Under the pieces are notes generated by a model. The model worked only from the letters and a program-made list of their open reading frames with translations. It was not told where the DNA came from and made no database searches. Positions 5,151 through 46,322 of a stretch of 64,000 nucleotides of DNA are shown one piece after another (within the stretch, counting starts at the first letter, position 1; each line of letters begins with the position of its first letter). Source of the stretch: Thermanaeromonas toyohensis ToBE (lineage in GTDB: Bacteria > Bacillota > DSM-521 > Neomoorellales > Neomoorellaceae); assembly GCF_900176005.1 (NCBI RefSeq), contig NZ_LT838272.1, positions 3,057,587-3,121,586 of the forward strand. The letters are read 5' to 3'. Both the position numbers and the translations under genes were made by a program.

Positions 5151-8100
5151 TTAGGCCCCCTTCTTCTGCTTTATCTCCTCTGCCATAACTTTAAGCATCC
5201 GATCCTTCATAAGCATAAGGAGGGCCGGGAGCACAGCAGGGAGCACGTTGTCCATAACTATGGGCAGCATCTCGGGAAGGAGCTTACACATACTGGGCGG
5301 CATATTGGGCATTTTTCTTTCCATGATTTTCTGCACGTCGGGTAGCATCTTGGGCAGCATCAGGGGCATCATTTTAGGCATCATCTTGGGCATCATGCCG
5401 CCAGCAGCTTTAAGCATTACATCCTGCAAGGGGCCCGGCATTTTCTTCATGGCGTTCATACCAGCTTTAAAGGTAACAGGCAGGTGCCCGAACATACCCG
5501 GCATGAGTTCCGTCATCATCTCGACCATGCCGTCCAGGCTCATACTTTGAATGGCCGTGGCAAAAACAGCCCACATTTCATGGACAATAGGTGTGGGATC
5601 TTTTACTTCATAGCCTAAGGCTTCTGCTACTAGATTGCTAAAATCCCGGATCTGTACTGGTATATTATTGCTCCGCGCACCAACCCGGAGCTGGAACTCG
5701 CAGCACGGGCAGGTAGTGATGATAGTTTCGGCCCCGATCTCCTGGGCCTCTTTAAGCCGCTGGCCAGCGATGATGTCCGAAGTAGGCGGCTCACCGATCC
5801 TGGTCAACACGCTCCCACAGCAGCGCCCGTTTTCCCGGTTAGAGACCATCTCCTGGAATTCCACTCCTGGGAGGGAGCGTAGCACCTCCCTCGGCGGGTC
5901 GTAAATCCCACCGTGGCGGCCTATATGGCACGGGTCGTGCCATGTGATTTTAAGGTTCAAAGGCCGTTTGAACTGTAAACGACCTTCCCGGACCAGATCG
6001 GCGGTTACCTCGGTAATATGCTTAATTTTCACTTTCCATTCCAGGCCAAGCTTGGGAGCCCACTGGGCATAGTAATGGTGCAAGGCCACCCAGCATCCGG
6101 GACAGGAGACAATAAGGGTCTTAACGCCTCGCTTCTGCAATTCGCTAATATTATGCCTTACAGCCTGCTCGAACACCTCCCATTTTCCGGCCACCAAGAA
6201 GGGCACTCCGCAGCAGGCTTCATCCTTGCCCAGGTAGGTGAAGGGGACTTGACCGTCCCGCAAGATCCGTACAGCATTCTCAGCTATATCGGTTTCTACG
6301 TAGGATGCCGTGCAGCCCGCCCAGTAACCTATTTCTGCTCTGTCCAGGACCTCGACGTCACCCGGCACCCAGGCATCACGGTCTTGGCGGAAGTTGGCCC
6401 AGATGTTGTGCTGGAGCCTGAAGGACGCGCCCATCATTTCAAAGGCCGGGAAGGTAGCGTAACCCTTTTCTTTAATGAGCACACCCCTCAGATCATCCCA
6501 TAATTCCTGGATGGGTATATTAACCTGGCATACCGGATCGCAGCGCTTGCAGGTAGTACATAAAAGAAAAGTGTTTACCAGATCCTGCGTAAGCTCAAGC
6601 TTTCCTTCGGCATACTTACGCAGAAGATACCACTTGCCCCGCGGCGAAGCGCTCTCCCACCCGCGTCCGCCGAAAAGGGTACACACGTTGCGGCAGTAAC
6701 CGCACTGGGCACAGGCATAGGCTTCATATAGAATATGCTTGGGCAGGGCCCGGGATTCCTTAGGCTTTTTAGGAGCCAAGTTTTCGGCCAGACCCAGCGC
6801 TGACCGAGTGAAGCGAGCCATCTTCAGGGCCAAGCGCAAGGCGCTCTTGTCTGCACCTAAGATCTTGTCTGGATTAAATAAGTTCTGCGGATCGATTTGC
6901 TTCTTGTAAGCCTCCAACCGCTTTCTCTGGGTTTCTCCTAAAATTTCCCCTGCCTGATCTCCAAAGAAAAGTCCTAGGGAATAAACCCGCCCCCCATATT
7001 TCCGAGCAAGGTCCGCTACGAACAGAGACTTGCTGTACCCTATGGTATAAGCCAAGGTTCTCTCGTCCGCGTCTAAGAACCCCAAGATGGTAACTGTCCC
7101 GTCGGCAATTAAGGTGCCTTCCAAGGCGAGGCCCTGGATGTTTTTCTCAACCTCTTGTAAGAAACCCTCTAGGTTCCCCAGGGGTACGATAGCTTCGCTT
7201 GGGATCAGGGAGGGGCCTAGACGTTTAAGCCGCATAGGGTAAAATCTTTCTTCCCACTCATGCTGGGCTAAGTCCTCGCTGAGAAGCTTGCCATGGTAAG
7301 CCCGGGCCAGAGCTTGGGCTTTCGCTCTCACTTCCCTTTCCCGCTTCCTGGGGTACACTACCAGGACCAAGGGCTGTTGATGGGGGAACTTCTCCTCCTT
7401 TAGGGCCTGCTGTTTCTTGGTAATAAATTCAGGGCTGCTGAAGGAAACATGCCAGGCAGGGAGCCTTCCGTTAATAAGGGTTTGTAAAAAGGCCAGAAGT
7501 TCCGGCCTCCCTGGGAAAGAGAAGAGCAGAGGCACATCCTCATCAGCCTTCCGGCACTTTAAGGTAATGCTGGTAATGAGCCCTGTTATCCCCTCTAGAC
7601 CGCATATAAGCTTGAGGTCCGAACCGGAAAACTTAGCTATCTCCCCGGAAGGCAAAATGGCTTCTACAGCTACTACGTTTGCACCAATAACCCCGTACTC
7701 GTAGCTACCGATGCCTACCCCACCTTCAGCCACCCATCCTCCTACTGTGGAGCCGGGTGCGCTGGTAGGATATAGGCGCAAAGCTAAGCCGACCCTACGC
7801 AAAACCTTTTCCAAGTCTTGCCAGACTACTCCGGCCTGTACTGTAACCTCCTCCTTTTCGGGGTCAACCTGTAATATCCGGTTAAACCGCGAAAACTCAA
7901 GTACCAAGCCCCCTCTCGTAGGAACAGCACCGCCGTATCCGCTGGTCCCTGCCCCCCGAGGCACTATGGGGAGGCCATTTTCCTGGGCCACTCGGACTAT
8001 AAACTGGACTTCCTCCACGGTTTCTGGTTGCACCACGGCATCCGGCAAGGTCTTAAATAACCTGGTTACCATTTCCGGGAGCGAAGCTACATCATGGCTA

Positions 8101-41264: not shown

Positions 41265-42845
41265 TCAGGGTGGATACTTTCTTAAAGGGAATAGCTTTAC
41301 AAAAATTTCTATAAGGTGCGGGTCAAACTGCTTACCCGCGCACCTCTTAAGCTCTTGTAACGCCTCCTCGTGGGTTAAGGGACGGCGGTAAGGCCTCTTT
41401 AACGTCATGGCATCATAAGCATCAGCTATAGCCAGGATGCGGCTCAAAAGGTGAATTTGCTCTCCCCGCAAGCCCTGGGGATAACCCCGCCCGTCCCACC
41501 GCTCATGGTGCTGAAGAATATAAGGAGCTACTCTGGCCAGCTCCCCGGAAGAGAGGGCAATACGGTACCCCACCTCAGGATGCCGCCGGACTTCTTCCCA
41601 TTCTTCTTCTGTAAGAGGACCAGGCTTTAATAAGATACTGGCTGGCACTACCAGCTTGCCGATGTCGTGCACATCCACCAGGAGGCGGAGATTATCCATT
41701 TCTTCGCGTGATAGACCCATCGCTTCCCCCAACAGGCAAACCATCTTTTTCATACGTTCCGTGTTGTGAAAGTCTTTCTCCGCCAGGGCTGCCTTAAGGG
41801 CGCGAATTACCGCCGCCCGCGGGTCTTTCCCGCTAGCTAGCTTGTTCATATACATCGCATCATCTGCTTCCTTGTATACTTCTCGGAGAGGCCGGGAATT
41901 ATCTTCTGCTGTTGCTGCCCCCACAGAAATGCTTAAAGGAAGGTCCGGGTGCTGGGCGGTATCCTTTTCTGCAGCTTCAATTATACGCCTGGCCACTTCC
42001 TCAGCTGTCTTCCGGCCTGTTTGGGGAAGGATTATGGCAAACTCGTCTCCGCCAACCCGGGCCACTACATCAGACCCCCGGACGCAGCCCGCGATCACCT
42101 TTGCCGCGCGGCGTAAAAGCTCATCACCCTGCTCGTGCCCCAGCATGTCGTTGACTATTTTTAAACCGTCAAGATCGCAAAGAACAAGGCTTATAGGGAA
42201 GGAGCGGCCCTTTTCCAGTCGCTGTAGCTCTTCTTCAAAAAAGGCCCGGTTATAAAGGCCTGTAAGGGCATCGCGCGTGCTCCAAAGCCTTAGTTCCTCT
42301 TCCATCCTCTTGCGCTCGCCAATGTCGCGGATGCACTGGACTGCTCCTAAGAGGTTTCCCCTATCGTCGTGTATAGGGGCTACAAGCGTCCAGAAGTGAA
42401 GCCCCCTCCCGCCATAGGCACAAGGGGCAAAACCTTCACCAATAAGAATATGGCCCTTCCTCTCCACCTTTTCATATTCCTGTTCCCACTCTTTACCATT
42501 ACCGAGCAAAATATCTACAAGGATGGGCCTCTGTATCCCATAAAACGGGATAGCGTAAGCATATTCTCCCTTTCCCAAAATTTCTTCCTTCTTGACGCCC
42601 GTCATTTCCTCCATGGCCAGGTTCCACACTAGCACCCTCCCCTGGCGGTCAACGGCAAGGGTAGCGTCCGGGAGGCAGTCGATGATCCTTTCCAGAAGAT
42701 GAAGCCTTTCCACTAAGCCTTCTGGCGGGATGCCGCTTCCGTGATTAAGGAGGAGTGTCAGCACTTCCTTGGCTACCTCGGTTTTCTCCTCCGGTAGAGC
42801 CTCTACCAGTTGGTGAAGTTCATCTTTTCGTTGGCTTAGGTTCAT
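41265..42845 (-). CDS. PAS-GGDEF-HD-GYP cyclic-di-GMP signalling protein
   Basis: A 526-residue cytoplasmic protein with a helical N-terminus, a PAS sensor (~50-175; LPDATLAVDRQGRVLVWNLA), a GGDEF diguanylate cyclase (~185-345) and an HD-GYP phosphodiesterase (~355-520). The GGDEF site is intact (ARVGGDEFAI) with the RxxD inhibitory site five residues before it (RGSD). HD-GYP residues are intact: VHDIGKLV and WDGRGYPQG. It may both make and break c-di-GMP under PAS control. It is the last gene of the signalling block. Confidence 0.92.
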   Translation of the reverse strand: MNLSQRKDELHQLVEALPEEKTEVAKEVLTLLLNHGSGIPPEGLVERLHLLERIIDCLPDATLAVDRQGRVLVWNLAMEEMTGVKKEEILGKGEYAYAIPFYGIQRPILVDILLGNGKEWEQEYEKVERKGHILIGEGFAPCAYGGRGLHFWTLVAPIHDDRGNLLGAVQCIRDIGERKRMEEELRLWSTRDALTGLYNRAFFEEELQRLEKGRSFPISLVLCDLDGLKIVNDMLGHEQGDELLRRAAKVIAGCVRGSDVVARVGGDEFAIILPQTGRKTAEEVARRIIEAAEKDTAQHPDLPLSISVGAATAEDNSRPLREVYKEADDAMYMNKLASGKDPRAAVIRALKAALAEKDFHNTERMKKMVCLLGEAMGLSREEMDNLRLLVDVHDIGKLVVPASILLKPGPLTEEEWEEVRRHPEVGYRIALSSGELARVAPYILQHHERWDGRGYPQGLRGEQIHLLSRILAIADAYDAMTLKRPYRRPLTHEEALQELKRCAGKQFDPHLIEIFVKLFPLRKYPP

Positions 42846-42961
42846 GTCCTCCCCGGTCTCCTTTATGCTCCTCTTTTCAGGGTATTTTCCCTTTTTCGAG
42901 AATCTAAAAAGTGTGATCCTCGGTTATACTCTGGCCACCACAGTTCAACTCTTTAGGTAAA

Positions 42962-42979
42962 CTCCACTATTTAGTGGAG
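42962..42979 (-). terminator. Perfect 8-bp hairpin after the GGDEF remnant
   Basis: CTCCACTA-tt-TAGTGGAG is perfectly paired, followed on the minus strand by TTTACC. It lies in the 422-bp gap between the two HD-GYP genes and may end the upstream transcript. A second small hairpin (CCATCC-tca-GGATGG) lies at 43001-43015. Confidence 0.4.
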
Positions 42980-43006
42980 AGAAGAGAACGGGCGTCTTTA
43001 CCATCC

Positions 43007-43174
43007 TCAGGATGGTAGGCTAGCCCTTGCCCTTAAAACTTCATCCCCTACCTGGTAGCCCAGGGTATCGTTTATCTGTTTCATGTTATCCAGGTTCAGG
43101 ACGACATAGCTGACCAATTTGGTAGCATACGCTACGAATTTAAGCTCGTTTGGAAAGTATATTACTGTTACCGC
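43007..43174 (-). pseudogene. Decayed GGDEF-domain fragment
   Basis: The minus strand encodes SYVVLNLDNMKQINDTLGYQ followed by VGDEVLRARA and a stop at 43009. This is the substrate-binding segment of a diguanylate cyclase (compare LAILDLDNMKEINDTWGHQ in the gene at 45501). No start codon, signature GGDEF loop or C-terminus remains, and a stop bounds it upstream. Sequence between 43175 and 43320 in the frame reached by adding one base to the G tract (NTFFTAADTL) also resembles a GGDEF N-terminal helix. The fragment is likely the leftover of a gene or domain behind the HD-GYP protein. Confidence 0.7.
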
Positions 43175-43267
43175 CTAGGTTACACGGCGCGCTATCCAGT
43201 GTTTGCCAGCCTTCCTGTTTATCCCAAGCGGTCGTTGCCCTCTCTAGCATGGTATGCCCGGTTCGGG

Positions 43268-45409
43268 TCAGCGTGTCCGCCGCAGTAAAAAAAGTATTTC
43301 GCCAAGCAAAGCTATCAGGGTACCCCCCCCCCCCGGTGTAGCAATATCTTCCATTTCCTCCTGCGGTATCCGCAGAAATGCCTCTACCACCCGGGGGTCA
43401 AATTGCCGGCCTGCACACTGTTTCAGTTCCTCCCGCGCCTCCTCCGGGGTAAAGGCCTGCCTGTAAGGCCTTGCAGAGGTCATGGCGTCGTAAGCATCGG
43501 CCACACGAATAATGCGTGCAAGAAGCGGGATCTCCTCTCCTTGAAGGCCGGCGGGATAACCACCGCCCCCATAGTCTTCGTGATGATGCCGCACGGCTAA
43601 AATGACTGCCGCAGGGAACCGGGCCGGTTCCAGGATCCTGGCTCCTATTTCAGGATGAGCTTGCATCTCTTTTCTTTCTTCTGGGGTGAGAGGGCCCGGT
43701 TTGAGAAGAATCTCCTCTTGTATGCCAATTTTGCCCAGGTCGTGTAGAAGGCCAGCCAGGTAGACCTGTTCCTCTTCTTCAGCACTAAGTCCTAGTATAC
43801 GGGCGCAGGAGCGTGCCCATTTAGCTACCCGGATGGAGTGTCCCCTCGTGTATACGTCCTTGGCCTCCAAGGCCGCTGCCAGGGCCTGTACGGTACTTAA
43901 GTAGTATTCTCGCAGGGAGGAGTAAAGGCGGGCGTTCTCCAGGGCCAGCCCGATTTGAGCTGCAACGGTACCTAGGTATTCAACTTCCTCTTCCGACCAG
44001 CGGCGCGGTACAGGAGAATAAACCTTTAGTGTACCCAGTATCTTCCCGCCCGCTTTCACGGGCGCTACAATCAGGGCCCGCATTTCAAGGGCGTAGTAGG
44101 GCAGGTGCCCGCCGGATTCGCCTGCGGCCAGGTCCTCCACTACTATGGGCTCCCCTCTTTGGAGTACTTCACCCAGCAAATTGCCCTCCGGCCGGACGCG
44201 GGCGACCCTTTCTTGCAACTTAGGGCTCATACCTAAGCTAGCCTTAAGTACCAGTTCGCCGGTATTTTCGTCAAGCACCCGCAGGGCACACCACCGTGCG
44301 CCCAGCACGTCCCTCACGCTTGCCAGGGCCGATTCCAGTACTAGGTCTACATCAAGGTGGCTCGATAACACCTGCCCTACTTCGATTAGCCGTTCAAGCA
44401 TCGCTGCCCTTTCCTGCACTTTCCGGAAAAGCCGGGCATTTTCTAACGCCAGCCCCAGAATAGTGCCCAGGGTGGTCAGGAAGATGGCTTCTTCTTCGGT
44501 GAAGCGTTGCCCCCCTGGTTTACCTGCTAGGGTGAGTACCCCTGTTACTTTACCCCCAACTGTAAGCGGTATGGCAATTGCCGGTCGCCTTTCTTCGGGG
44601 GTGCTTTCTTTAGGACGGCTGTCAAAGTACGTGGCGATAGCTTCCCGCCCAACAGCAGCTATTATTTCCCCTGCTGGAATAACCTTTAAGTCGTTAGAGG
44701 GCTCCAGGGTAGCCGCCACTTCAAGAGCTGCCGCCCCTTGTTCCGCTTCGCTAAGCATTATCACCGACCCACTGGTGGCCCCGGTCAATTCCAGCACCGC
44801 CCGGAGCGCCTTCCGGGCGGCTTCGGCCACCTGAAGGCTACTAGAAACTGTTTTGCTGAATTCAAAGAGGGCGGTGAGTTCGTCTACCTTTTTCTGGAAT
44901 TCCTGCTTGGTGTACAGCAGCTGGGCTACGGTTTCTGTTACTGCCCGCATCATCTCCGCTGCAATCCAAAGTCGTTCTTCAGGCCAGAGAGATACTGTTT
45001 GGGCCGCTGCCCAAAGCTCTTCCCGGTCAATGCCTGTCTCCCGGGCCAGCCCGGCCACTCTCTCTTCTGTAAGGGGCTTAAGCGTCACATTCCCACCCAC
45101 CAGTACCGCTACTGTTTCTCCCGCTACCCGAAGGGGTACTGCCAGGTGCACCAGCCCGGCATGGCAGGTGTCGAGGACCGCCCTCCCTGCGTCCACGGCA
45201 GCCCTGGCAGAGATTACACGTGAAGCCGCACACCTGGCTCTTCCTTCCGGATTAGCATTAAGCAGAGCGCAGAAAGGGCATAGGTTGGAGGTTCTGGTGA
45301 GGGGGTTTCCTTCTTTATCGGTAACTAGAGCTGCCAGCCCCAGGGCCTGGCTCATGCTATCTTGAAGTCTTTGTAAGCCAAGCTGCTTTAGTTCTTCGTA
45401 GTATTGCAT
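43268..45409 (-). CDS. PocR-GAF-GAF-HD-GYP c-di-GMP phosphodiesterase
   Basis: About 713 residues from the ATG at 45409 (AGAGGG 6 bp upstream); an ATG at 45427 is the alternative, and the longer frame to 45571 is unsupported. Domains: PocR-type sensor with conserved cysteines (CPFCALLNANPEGRARC, ~40), two GAF domains (~190-345 and ~360-510), and an HD-GYP phosphodiesterase (~520-690; LLHDLGKIG, HHHEDYGGGGYPAG). The C-terminal end is encoded through a run of 12 G (ATPGGGGTL), then 18 residues without family likeness. A one-base change in the run would shorten or extend the protein. It follows the GGDEF gene closely. Confidence 0.88.
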   Translation of the reverse strand: MQYYEELKQLGLQRLQDSMSQALGLAALVTDKEGNPLTRTSNLCPFCALLNANPEGRARCAASRVISARAAVDAGRAVLDTCHAGLVHLAVPLRVAGETVAVLVGGNVTLKPLTEERVAGLARETGIDREELWAAAQTVSLWPEERLWIAAEMMRAVTETVAQLLYTKQEFQKKVDELTALFEFSKTVSSSLQVAEAARKALRAVLELTGATSGSVIMLSEAEQGAAALEVAATLEPSNDLKVIPAGEIIAAVGREAIATYFDSRPKESTPEERRPAIAIPLTVGGKVTGVLTLAGKPGGQRFTEEEAIFLTTLGTILGLALENARLFRKVQERAAMLERLIEVGQVLSSHLDVDLVLESALASVRDVLGARWCALRVLDENTGELVLKASLGMSPKLQERVARVRPEGNLLGEVLQRGEPIVVEDLAAGESGGHLPYYALEMRALIVAPVKAGGKILGTLKVYSPVPRRWSEEEVEYLGTVAAQIGLALENARLYSSLREYYLSTVQALAAALEAKDVYTRGHSIRVAKWARSCARILGLSAEEEEQVYLAGLLHDLGKIGIQEEILLKPGPLTPEERKEMQAHPEIGARILEPARFPAAVILAVRHHHEDYGGGGYPAGLQGEEIPLLARIIRVADAYDAMTSARPYRQAFTPEEAREELKQCAGRQFDPRVVEAFLRIPQEEMEDIATPGGGGTLIALLGEILFLLRRTR
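43323..43334. repeat. 12-nt homopolymer G tract in the HD-GYP gene
   Basis: Twelve consecutive C on the plus strand (G in the coding strand) lie 18 codons before the stop codon. Runs of this length are prone to slippage. With 11 G the frame ends at a TGA within three codons; with 13 G it stays open for about 60 more codons, through sequence resembling a GGDEF helix. Confidence 0.9.
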
Positions 45410-45500
45410 CAATTTCCCTCTTTCCATGAAGGAACCGCATACCTCCTGCTGGCAGTGCTCGCCAGAAAAGGCCTGGACTTCCATACTAGCAGCGGGAGTG

Positions 45501-46322
45501 TTAAATGCCGTTCCTTTTGTAGCCGCTCTTTGCTTCCTTGTCCGCGTACATCCTGGCGTCGGCCACCGCAAGCAGTGTATCTACGTCCTTCCCGTCTGCT
45601 GGAAACCGCGCTAGCCCCACCGATAGGCTCAAAGGTATCTCTGCGCCAGAAAAGCATATCGCTTTTAGATGCTTTTCCAGCCGGGCCCGGAGAGTTTCCA
45701 GGCGCGGCCCTTTATCGGGGAAGAGGATAACGAATTCATCGCCCCCGTAACGGGCTACCACGTCCCCCTCCCGGACGCTTTTCTGGATGGCCCGCGCTGC
45801 CTGCTTGAGCGCTTCGTCCCCACACTGGTGTCCCCAGGTGTCGTTGATTTCCTTCATGTTGTCCAGGTCTAGAATGGCCAGTGCCGGGCTGCGCCTTCCT
45901 GCTGAAGCTTCCTTAAGTACGCAATCTGCTGCAGCAAAAAAAGCCCGCCGGTTGTAAAGGCCGGTAAGAGGGTCGCTTTCGGCTTCACGCTGGTACTGAC
46001 ATGAAGTCCGGGCCAGCTCCACAACCATCAGAACCAGCGAGTAAAGGACCAAAGCGGTACCGGCATTGGCAAGGATGATTTCGCCTGCGATTCTTTTAAC
46101 CAGAGGGGAGAGGTAGAAAAACTCTCCTAAAAGGTCCAAGAAAATCCCGGCTAGTAATAAGGGCAGGCCGATAAAAAGCAAAACCCCGGCCGTTCTAACC
46201 TTAAGTTTAGAAGTACGGGTAAACCATTGCAGCCAGGTAAGTGCTAGGAGATAAATAAGGCCTTTGCTTCCCTTGCATATCACCCGCAGCCAGTCGATAG
46301 AGTAAACTCTTTCCAGGCTCAT
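45501..46322 (-). CDS. Membrane-anchored GGDEF diguanylate cyclase
   Basis: A 273-residue protein with three hydrophobic helices (about 20-35, 45-72 and 80-100) and a C-terminal GGDEF domain (~115-270). The active site RYGGDEFVILF is intact and an RxxD inhibitory site (REGD) lies five residues before it, so a feedback-controlled diguanylate cyclase is expected. It is the second gene of the signalling block, between the response regulator and the HD-GYP phosphodiesterase, pairing synthesis with breakdown of c-di-GMP. Confidence 0.92.
   Translation of the reverse strand: MSLERVYSIDWLRVICKGSKGLIYLLALTWLQWFTRTSKLKVRTAGVLLFIGLPLLLAGIFLDLLGEFFYLSPLVKRIAGEIILANAGTALVLYSLVLMVVELARTSCQYQREAESDPLTGLYNRRAFFAAADCVLKEASAGRRSPALAILDLDNMKEINDTWGHQCGDEALKQAARAIQKSVREGDVVARYGGDEFVILFPDKGPRLETLRARLEKHLKAICFSGAEIPLSLSVGLARFPADGKDVDTLLAVADARMYADKEAKSGYKRNGI

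Follow-up and report, generated by a model that had tools for sequence, protein, structure and literature searches.

Near the 3′ end of a gene for a predicted c-di-GMP phosphodiesterase in Thermanaeromonas toyohensis ToBE stands a run of 12 G, and the question raised by this locus is what the run does to the C-terminus of the enzyme. An earlier note on the window, by which we mean the whole stretch of 64,000 nucleotides analyzed here, offered two readings, namely a phase-variation switch of the C-terminus or the scar of a broken HD-GYP/GGDEF fusion. Comparison of homologous genes supports the former, and we consider it probable (roughly 0.7) that poly-G slippage phase-varies the C-terminus of this HD-GYP enzyme. 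The tract is kept in place, it occurs at 8 to 16 G and in three frames, and the tail behind it is conserved in out-of-frame genes as well.

The G12 tract and its host gene

The run was reported to lie 18 codons before the stop of its gene, and it is indeed present as C12 on the plus strand, equivalent to G12 of a gene on the minus strand, with 17 codons and the stop following it (Table 1). The Pfam search of the 719-residue protein returned PocR (2.3e-39), GAF_2 (1.9e-33), and HD_5 (6.9e-42), the last match covering residues 516-680. The tract thus comes at the 3′ end of the gene and after the complete HD-GYP domain, the arrangement of C-terminal phase variation of the Helicobacter canadensis type.

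Table 1. Features of the locus, in positions of the window
Feature	Position	Strand	Remarks
PocR-GAF-GAF-HD-GYP gene	43268..45427	-	719 aa; start ATG at 45427 chosen by us; predicted c-di-GMP phosphodiesterase
G12 tract (C12 on +)	43323..43334	-	position conserved; 17 homologous genes have 8-16 G
Conserved tail TLIALLGEILFLLRRTR + stop	43268..43321	-	state A: continues the frame of the body when the tract is G12, as here
Alternative reading YPDSFAWRNTFFTAADTL..., about 60 residues	43140..43322	-	state C, e.g., at G13; length unconserved in homologues, no Pfam match
Relic of a separate downstream GGDEF gene	42976..43114	-	two collinear pieces in different frames
PAS-GGDEF-HD-GYP neighbour gene	41265..42845	-	domain search
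GGDEF neighbour gene, upstream	45501..46322	-	domain search

The solved HD-GYP relatives found by sequence were 5z7c and 4mcw, and Foldseek with the C-terminal 225 residues recovered the HD-GYP fold (9rbz, 1.8e-9; 4mcw, 3.3e-9), so that the protein carries both the profile and the fold. The HD-GYP signature reads HD...HHExxDGxGYP. Its HDLGK and HHE residues are present, and in the window gene and five aligned homologues GGGG replaces DGxG before YP, giving HHHEDYGGGGYP where 4mcw has HHERWDGTGYP. The gene therefore resembles the HD-GYP phosphodiesterases of known structure (4mcw, PA4781 4r8z, DvhD 9rbz, and V-cGAP3 5z7c) in the sequence and fold of this domain, and it is unlike them in having a PocR-GAF-GAF sensor part and a poly-glycine stretch with a hydrophobic tail. 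Its product is predicted, from sequence and model, to be an HD-GYP c-di-GMP phosphodiesterase, which agrees with the function given to it in the earlier note. The HD-GYP/GGDEF cluster around it (window 41265-46322) appears to be duplicated at G000:C1:1.70 Mb (L123), where the GGDEF gene downstream is intact and precedes a similar GGDEF-HD-GYP-type gene.

The genome, a single contig of 3,334,024 bases, contains 153 exact G7 and 16 exact G8 runs, no exact run of G9, G10, or G11, and then four long runs of 12, 12, 14, and 12 G. Extrapolation of the trend from G7 to G8 predicted 0.002 runs of at least 12 G, and a generous ratio of GC/2 predicted 0.08. Since four runs of 12-14 G stand against these expectations, and since the run recurs at the same site in homologues, G runs this long are commoner than the trend of the genome predicts, and the G12 tract is beyond chance.

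A change in tract length alters the product by frameshift, yielding three different C-termini. At the present length the body is read into the tail (state A), and with one G less the protein ends at once after the tract (state B). One extra base, as had been foreseen, opens a further frame running to about 43140 (state C). The sequence NTFFTAADTL in this frame had been likened to a GGDEF helix, a resemblance that did not hold up, the 60-residue peptide matching no Pfam family at E ≤ 1.

Tract, frame, and tail among homologues

In the paralogue of the same genome (G000:C1:1701008-1703173; 81% identity), a G12 run occupies the same codon, and the tract was found in all 13 distinct close homologous genes identified by the gene body (the window gene, the paralogue, G003, G007, G008, G010, G014, G016, G021, G048, G084, G260, and Desulfovirgula L013). 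Moorella mulderi and Desulfovirgula thermocuniculi are among the species represented. Duplicate loci were merged before counting (L009 = G010, L011 = G260, L012 = G084, L014 = G003, and, by 100% identity, L010 = G048). A DNA pattern of tract plus tail, constraining the first and second codon positions and leaving the third free, matched 14 of 398 genomes of the phylum, including those already known, and added five genes (G306, G184, G265, G288, and G276). The tract is missing from four homologues that are 49-56% identical, namely G023 and the second copies carried by G016, G002, and G008. The three of them with a readable end also have no conserved tail, their frames closing shortly past the domain; for the fourth (L167), the judgment rests solely on finding no G/C run longer than 5. 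Because of these tract-free homologues and their tail-free ends, tract and tail together look like a shared derived trait.

Among the 17 genes with a readable frame, the tract ranged from 8 to 16 G, as taken from assemblies, in which poly-G length can err. State A was assigned to five genes (window, paralogue, G016, G084, and G288), state B to five (G010, G007, G003, G306, and G184), and state C to seven (G008, G014, Desulfovirgula, G260, G021, G265, and G276); G048, the eighteenth tract gene, was excluded because its contigs break at the tract. These states are not clustered on the gene tree, where they need 9 changes against a shuffled mean of 8.2, a value as low being reached in 185 of 200 shuffles. 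In this body tree 10 of 14 inner branches are unresolved, and the weight is carried mainly by the sister pairs G184/G084 and G265/G288, both well supported and both with mixed states; the less certain group G016/G014/G007 is mixed as well. The locus thus combines a homopolymer beyond chance, frameshifted products, and on and off lengths across related genomes, as a contingency locus does.

The state-C extension was considered as a conserved product and rejected because its length varies among homologues: behind the tract, the seven genes have 16, 28, 34, 54, 97, 143, and 983 residues, the 16 of G021 being cut by the contig end. The longest belongs to Desulfovirgula, where the reading continues into the following HD-GYP-type ORF as a putative fusion. 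At this locus (D. thermocuniculi L013:4989-10046), the HD-GYP gene with its G16 is open into the next ORF as one reading frame of 1685 residues.

The tail of state A has the consensus TLIALLGEILFLLRRxR, about 17 hydrophobic residues behind a poly-glycine linker, and it ends at the present stop. No frame-A stop occurs within its 12-codon core in any of the 17 genes. Frame A closes at the stop in the 16 genes whose DNA reaches that point, with a different ending in G276, and the G021 contig ends before it. According to the earlier note, a fixed tract length together with homologues ending naturally at the present stop would speak against a switch; the stops proved to be natural, and the tract length is not fixed across homologues. 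With the window as reference and G021 and G276 left out, the tail DNA was more similar to the window than the 60 bases after the stop in 14 of 14 genes, including all 10 genes that carry the tail out of frame.

Selection on the encoded peptide was assessed in the 12 genes ascertained by their bodies, in which the tail had a pN/pS of 0.254, with none of 500 column shuffles as low. For the eight out-of-frame genes among them the value was 0.431 (12 of 500 shuffles as low), and the neighbouring frame gave a lower value of 0.334. Stronger codon tests on all 17 genes are partly a matter of ascertainment, since five of these genes came from the pattern that constrains codon positions 1 and 2, and when the tests were repeated on the 12 body-found genes only the pN/pS shuffles held.

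The tail has no known homologue, and in 22 genomes of the class the tail pattern occurred at eight sites only, all of them beside the tract. Its core, LIALLGEILFLL, is strongly hydrophobic. The full-length AlphaFold model was unusable (mean pLDDT 44), and a shorter model of the last 225 residues, comprising the HD-GYP part and the tail, was used instead. It consists of a confident domain and, past the glycines, a separate helix of low confidence (pLDDT 53-61). Judged only by the hydrophobic core and the separate predicted helix, the most likely role of the tail is to anchor the enzyme at the membrane or on a partner protein, which is the least certain step of our reading.

Weighing the explanations

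In the reading that we prefer, the G12 run would act as a simple-sequence contingency tract at the 3′ end of the HD-GYP gene, just past the domain and at the same codon in the paralogue and all close homologues. Its lengths differ by non-multiples of three, which places the sequenced genomes in three C-terminal states, namely a poly-glycine linker with the conserved tail (A), an immediate end (B), and an unconserved extension (C). Slipped-strand replication would add or remove G at a high rate, and a single clone would hold cells with and without the tail. The body and the catalytic domain would be made in every state, with the tail alone being switched, and the tail may change where or how strongly c-di-GMP is degraded. 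The tail is conserved although most sequenced genomes carry it out of frame.

The same conservation in out-of-frame genes could be explained without DNA switching if RNA polymerase or the ribosome slipped on the G run, producing a fixed mixture of tailed and tail-less protein at any tract length, and 8-16 G should in principle be long enough for this. Such slippage neither needs nor predicts a change of length in the DNA, whereas even sister genes are unlike in tract length and frame. Bacterial slippage on G runs is also weaker than on A or T runs, and we regard this explanation as unlikely. The frame differences might instead be assembly errors, all genes truly being in the tail frame and the run being a conserved glycine linker. 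Poly-G is error-prone, and in the metagenome assembly G048 the tract is the very point at which the contigs part, with G12 at the end of one (L010:7088-7099) and G16 at the beginning of another in its own orientation (L133:1-16); this split is equally expected from real heterogeneity. With a range of 8-16 G and only 5 of 17 genes in the tail frame, however, too many genes are off-frame for occasional errors. Moreover, a linker kept at the protein level would use all glycine codons and would not be pure GGG, since GGG makes up 34% of the glycine codons in the gene bodies. We therefore hold assembly error to be quite improbable.

A further possibility is that the run marks an unstable and unimportant gene end, with a dispensable tail conserved merely through recent common descent. 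In its favor, third-position changes did not reach significance in the unbiased 12-gene set (13 of 28; 1406 of 20,000 permutations as high), nor did their excess in the eight out-of-frame genes (8 of 22), and the post-stop DNA of G008, G014, G016, and G007 is likewise 70-75% identical to the window. Against it, the post-stop DNA of seven genes (the paralogue, G003, Desulfovirgula, G184, G084, G265, and G288) has fallen to or near the shuffled level, whereas their tails are still 61-90% identical, and the 12-codon core has stayed free of stops in every gene. This makes a dispensable end very improbable. The fusion scar proposed by the earlier note drew on a GGDEF segment downstream, and such a segment exists, VVLNLDNMKQINDTLGYQVGDEVLRA matching Pfam GGDEF at E = 2.6e-7 in a relic about 150-290 bases after the stop. 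The two pieces of the relic correspond to residues of about 137-167 and 227-243 in the GGDEF gene of M. mulderi. That gene is intact and separate at the loci of the paralogue, M. mulderi, and G007, where it lies 94-255 bases after the tract start; judged by this alignment, the window retains a copy of this separate gene from which an internal part has been deleted. None of the 15 homologous loci has a GGDEF motif in the same ORF as HD-GYP, placing the gene outside the HD-GYP/GGDEF fusions, and the tail closes at a shared natural stop. We therefore reject a broken fusion and give it practically no credence.

Known systems and other long G runs

Most known cases of phase variation by slippage concern surface structures of host-associated bacteria. 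The dominance of surface structures in studies of phase variation is also stated in the accessible part of a 2025 review, which adds an epigenetic case in E. coli (PMC11868660). C-terminal phase variation by poly-G itself is already known from Helicobacter canadensis, in which, according to the available portion of the report, eight genes, including an epimerase and flaG, have a 3′ poly-G tract with ranges of length in the reads of one strain (PMC2823697). The alternative C-termini described there are short, for example 4/1/18 or 17/4/2 residues, and one tract could fuse two neighbouring genes. As far as that portion goes, our locus shares with H. canadensis a run of at least 10 G close to the 3′ end of the CDS and a different short C-terminus for each frame, and the Desulfovirgula tract, which could likewise join neighbouring genes, parallels the fusion case. 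Here, in contrast, the tract belongs to a clostridial HD-GYP protein and has been retained in several families, and the tail is conserved; furthermore, lengths in H. canadensis varied in the reads of one strain, whereas the variation described here is known from assemblies of different genomes (PMC2823697).

In Clostridioides difficile, the available text describes pdcB and pdcC as c-di-GMP phosphodiesterases that are phase-variable through promoter inversion (PMC9286219; reviewed in PMC11868660). Stochastic switching of a c-di-GMP phosphodiesterase in Clostridia would be common to both cases. The invertible promoters of pdcB and pdcC set the amount of enzyme, as described there, whereas the coding poly-G tract would switch the C-terminus only (PMC9286219). 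Repeat-tract switching of a c-di-GMP enzyme was not named in the accessible parts of either source (PMC11868660, PMC9286219). A search of the literature, judged by the titles of the matches listed, returned nothing on poly-G or homopolymer phase variation in the Moorella lineage. Within the literature searched, an HD-GYP enzyme and this lineage are thus new as a target of poly-G. A lineage of thermophilic Clostridia appears to apply slippage switching to a second-messenger enzyme, and there to the tail instead of the expression. With a short conserved peptide that is switched by natural populations, one could test directly the role of a C-terminal tail in a c-di-GMP phosphodiesterase, and likewise why bet-hedging of the c-di-GMP level would suit an environmental anaerobe.

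Other long G runs were surveyed in five genomes, each consisting of one or two contigs (G000, G007, G011, G012, and G014). These genomes contain 28 runs of at least 9 G, of which 27 were examined and 16 are at least 11 G long. Four of these 16 lie in the tract-bearing HD-GYP gene. Others stand upstream of a gene, which is of HD type (Pfam HD_5) in five cases and a chemoreceptor gene, at a distance of about 500 to 1400 bases, in three; one more stands upstream of a pair of response-regulator genes. The remaining three are misfits, one associated with an EamA gene with low-complexity DNA, one with a UPF0236 gene, and one without a Pfam match. Because 13 of the 16 runs stand in or upstream of HD-GYP-type, chemoreceptor, or response-regulator genes, we tentatively propose, at somewhat less than even odds, that Moorella-type thermophilic anaerobes run a poly-G contingency system on c-di-GMP and chemotaxis signaling. 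If this were true, the second-messenger and chemotaxis state itself would be randomized, rather than surface antigens.

Many of the upstream runs sit within short ORFs with a leader such as MKDQIIITNKCQWGGGG, which suggests that leader-ORF runs may constitute a second, expression-type switch of the genes behind them. The two long G runs of the T. toyohensis genome outside the window gene and its paralogue are of this kind. A G12 run at G000:C1:186565-186576 (L124:3566-3577) lies in a short leader ORF 188 bases before an HD-GYP-type gene, and a G14 run at G000:C1:2326660-2326673 (L125, minus strand, 5328-5341) lies in another, about 500 bases before a chemoreceptor gene that is followed by a CheW-type gene. 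Related intergenic or leader-ORF runs of G12-G23 occur in other genomes of the Moorella family (L143, L144, L145, L150, L154, L155, L157, L162, and L142), mostly preceding HD-GYP-type, chemoreceptor, or response-regulator genes. G019, a genome of the same order, has 25 runs of at least 9 G, far more than the 0-6 per strand elsewhere in the class. A hydrophobic downstream reading (LLEINPLYILILFCLLFLCLARGKIILLFHNSP and variants) is common to three of the runs in G012.
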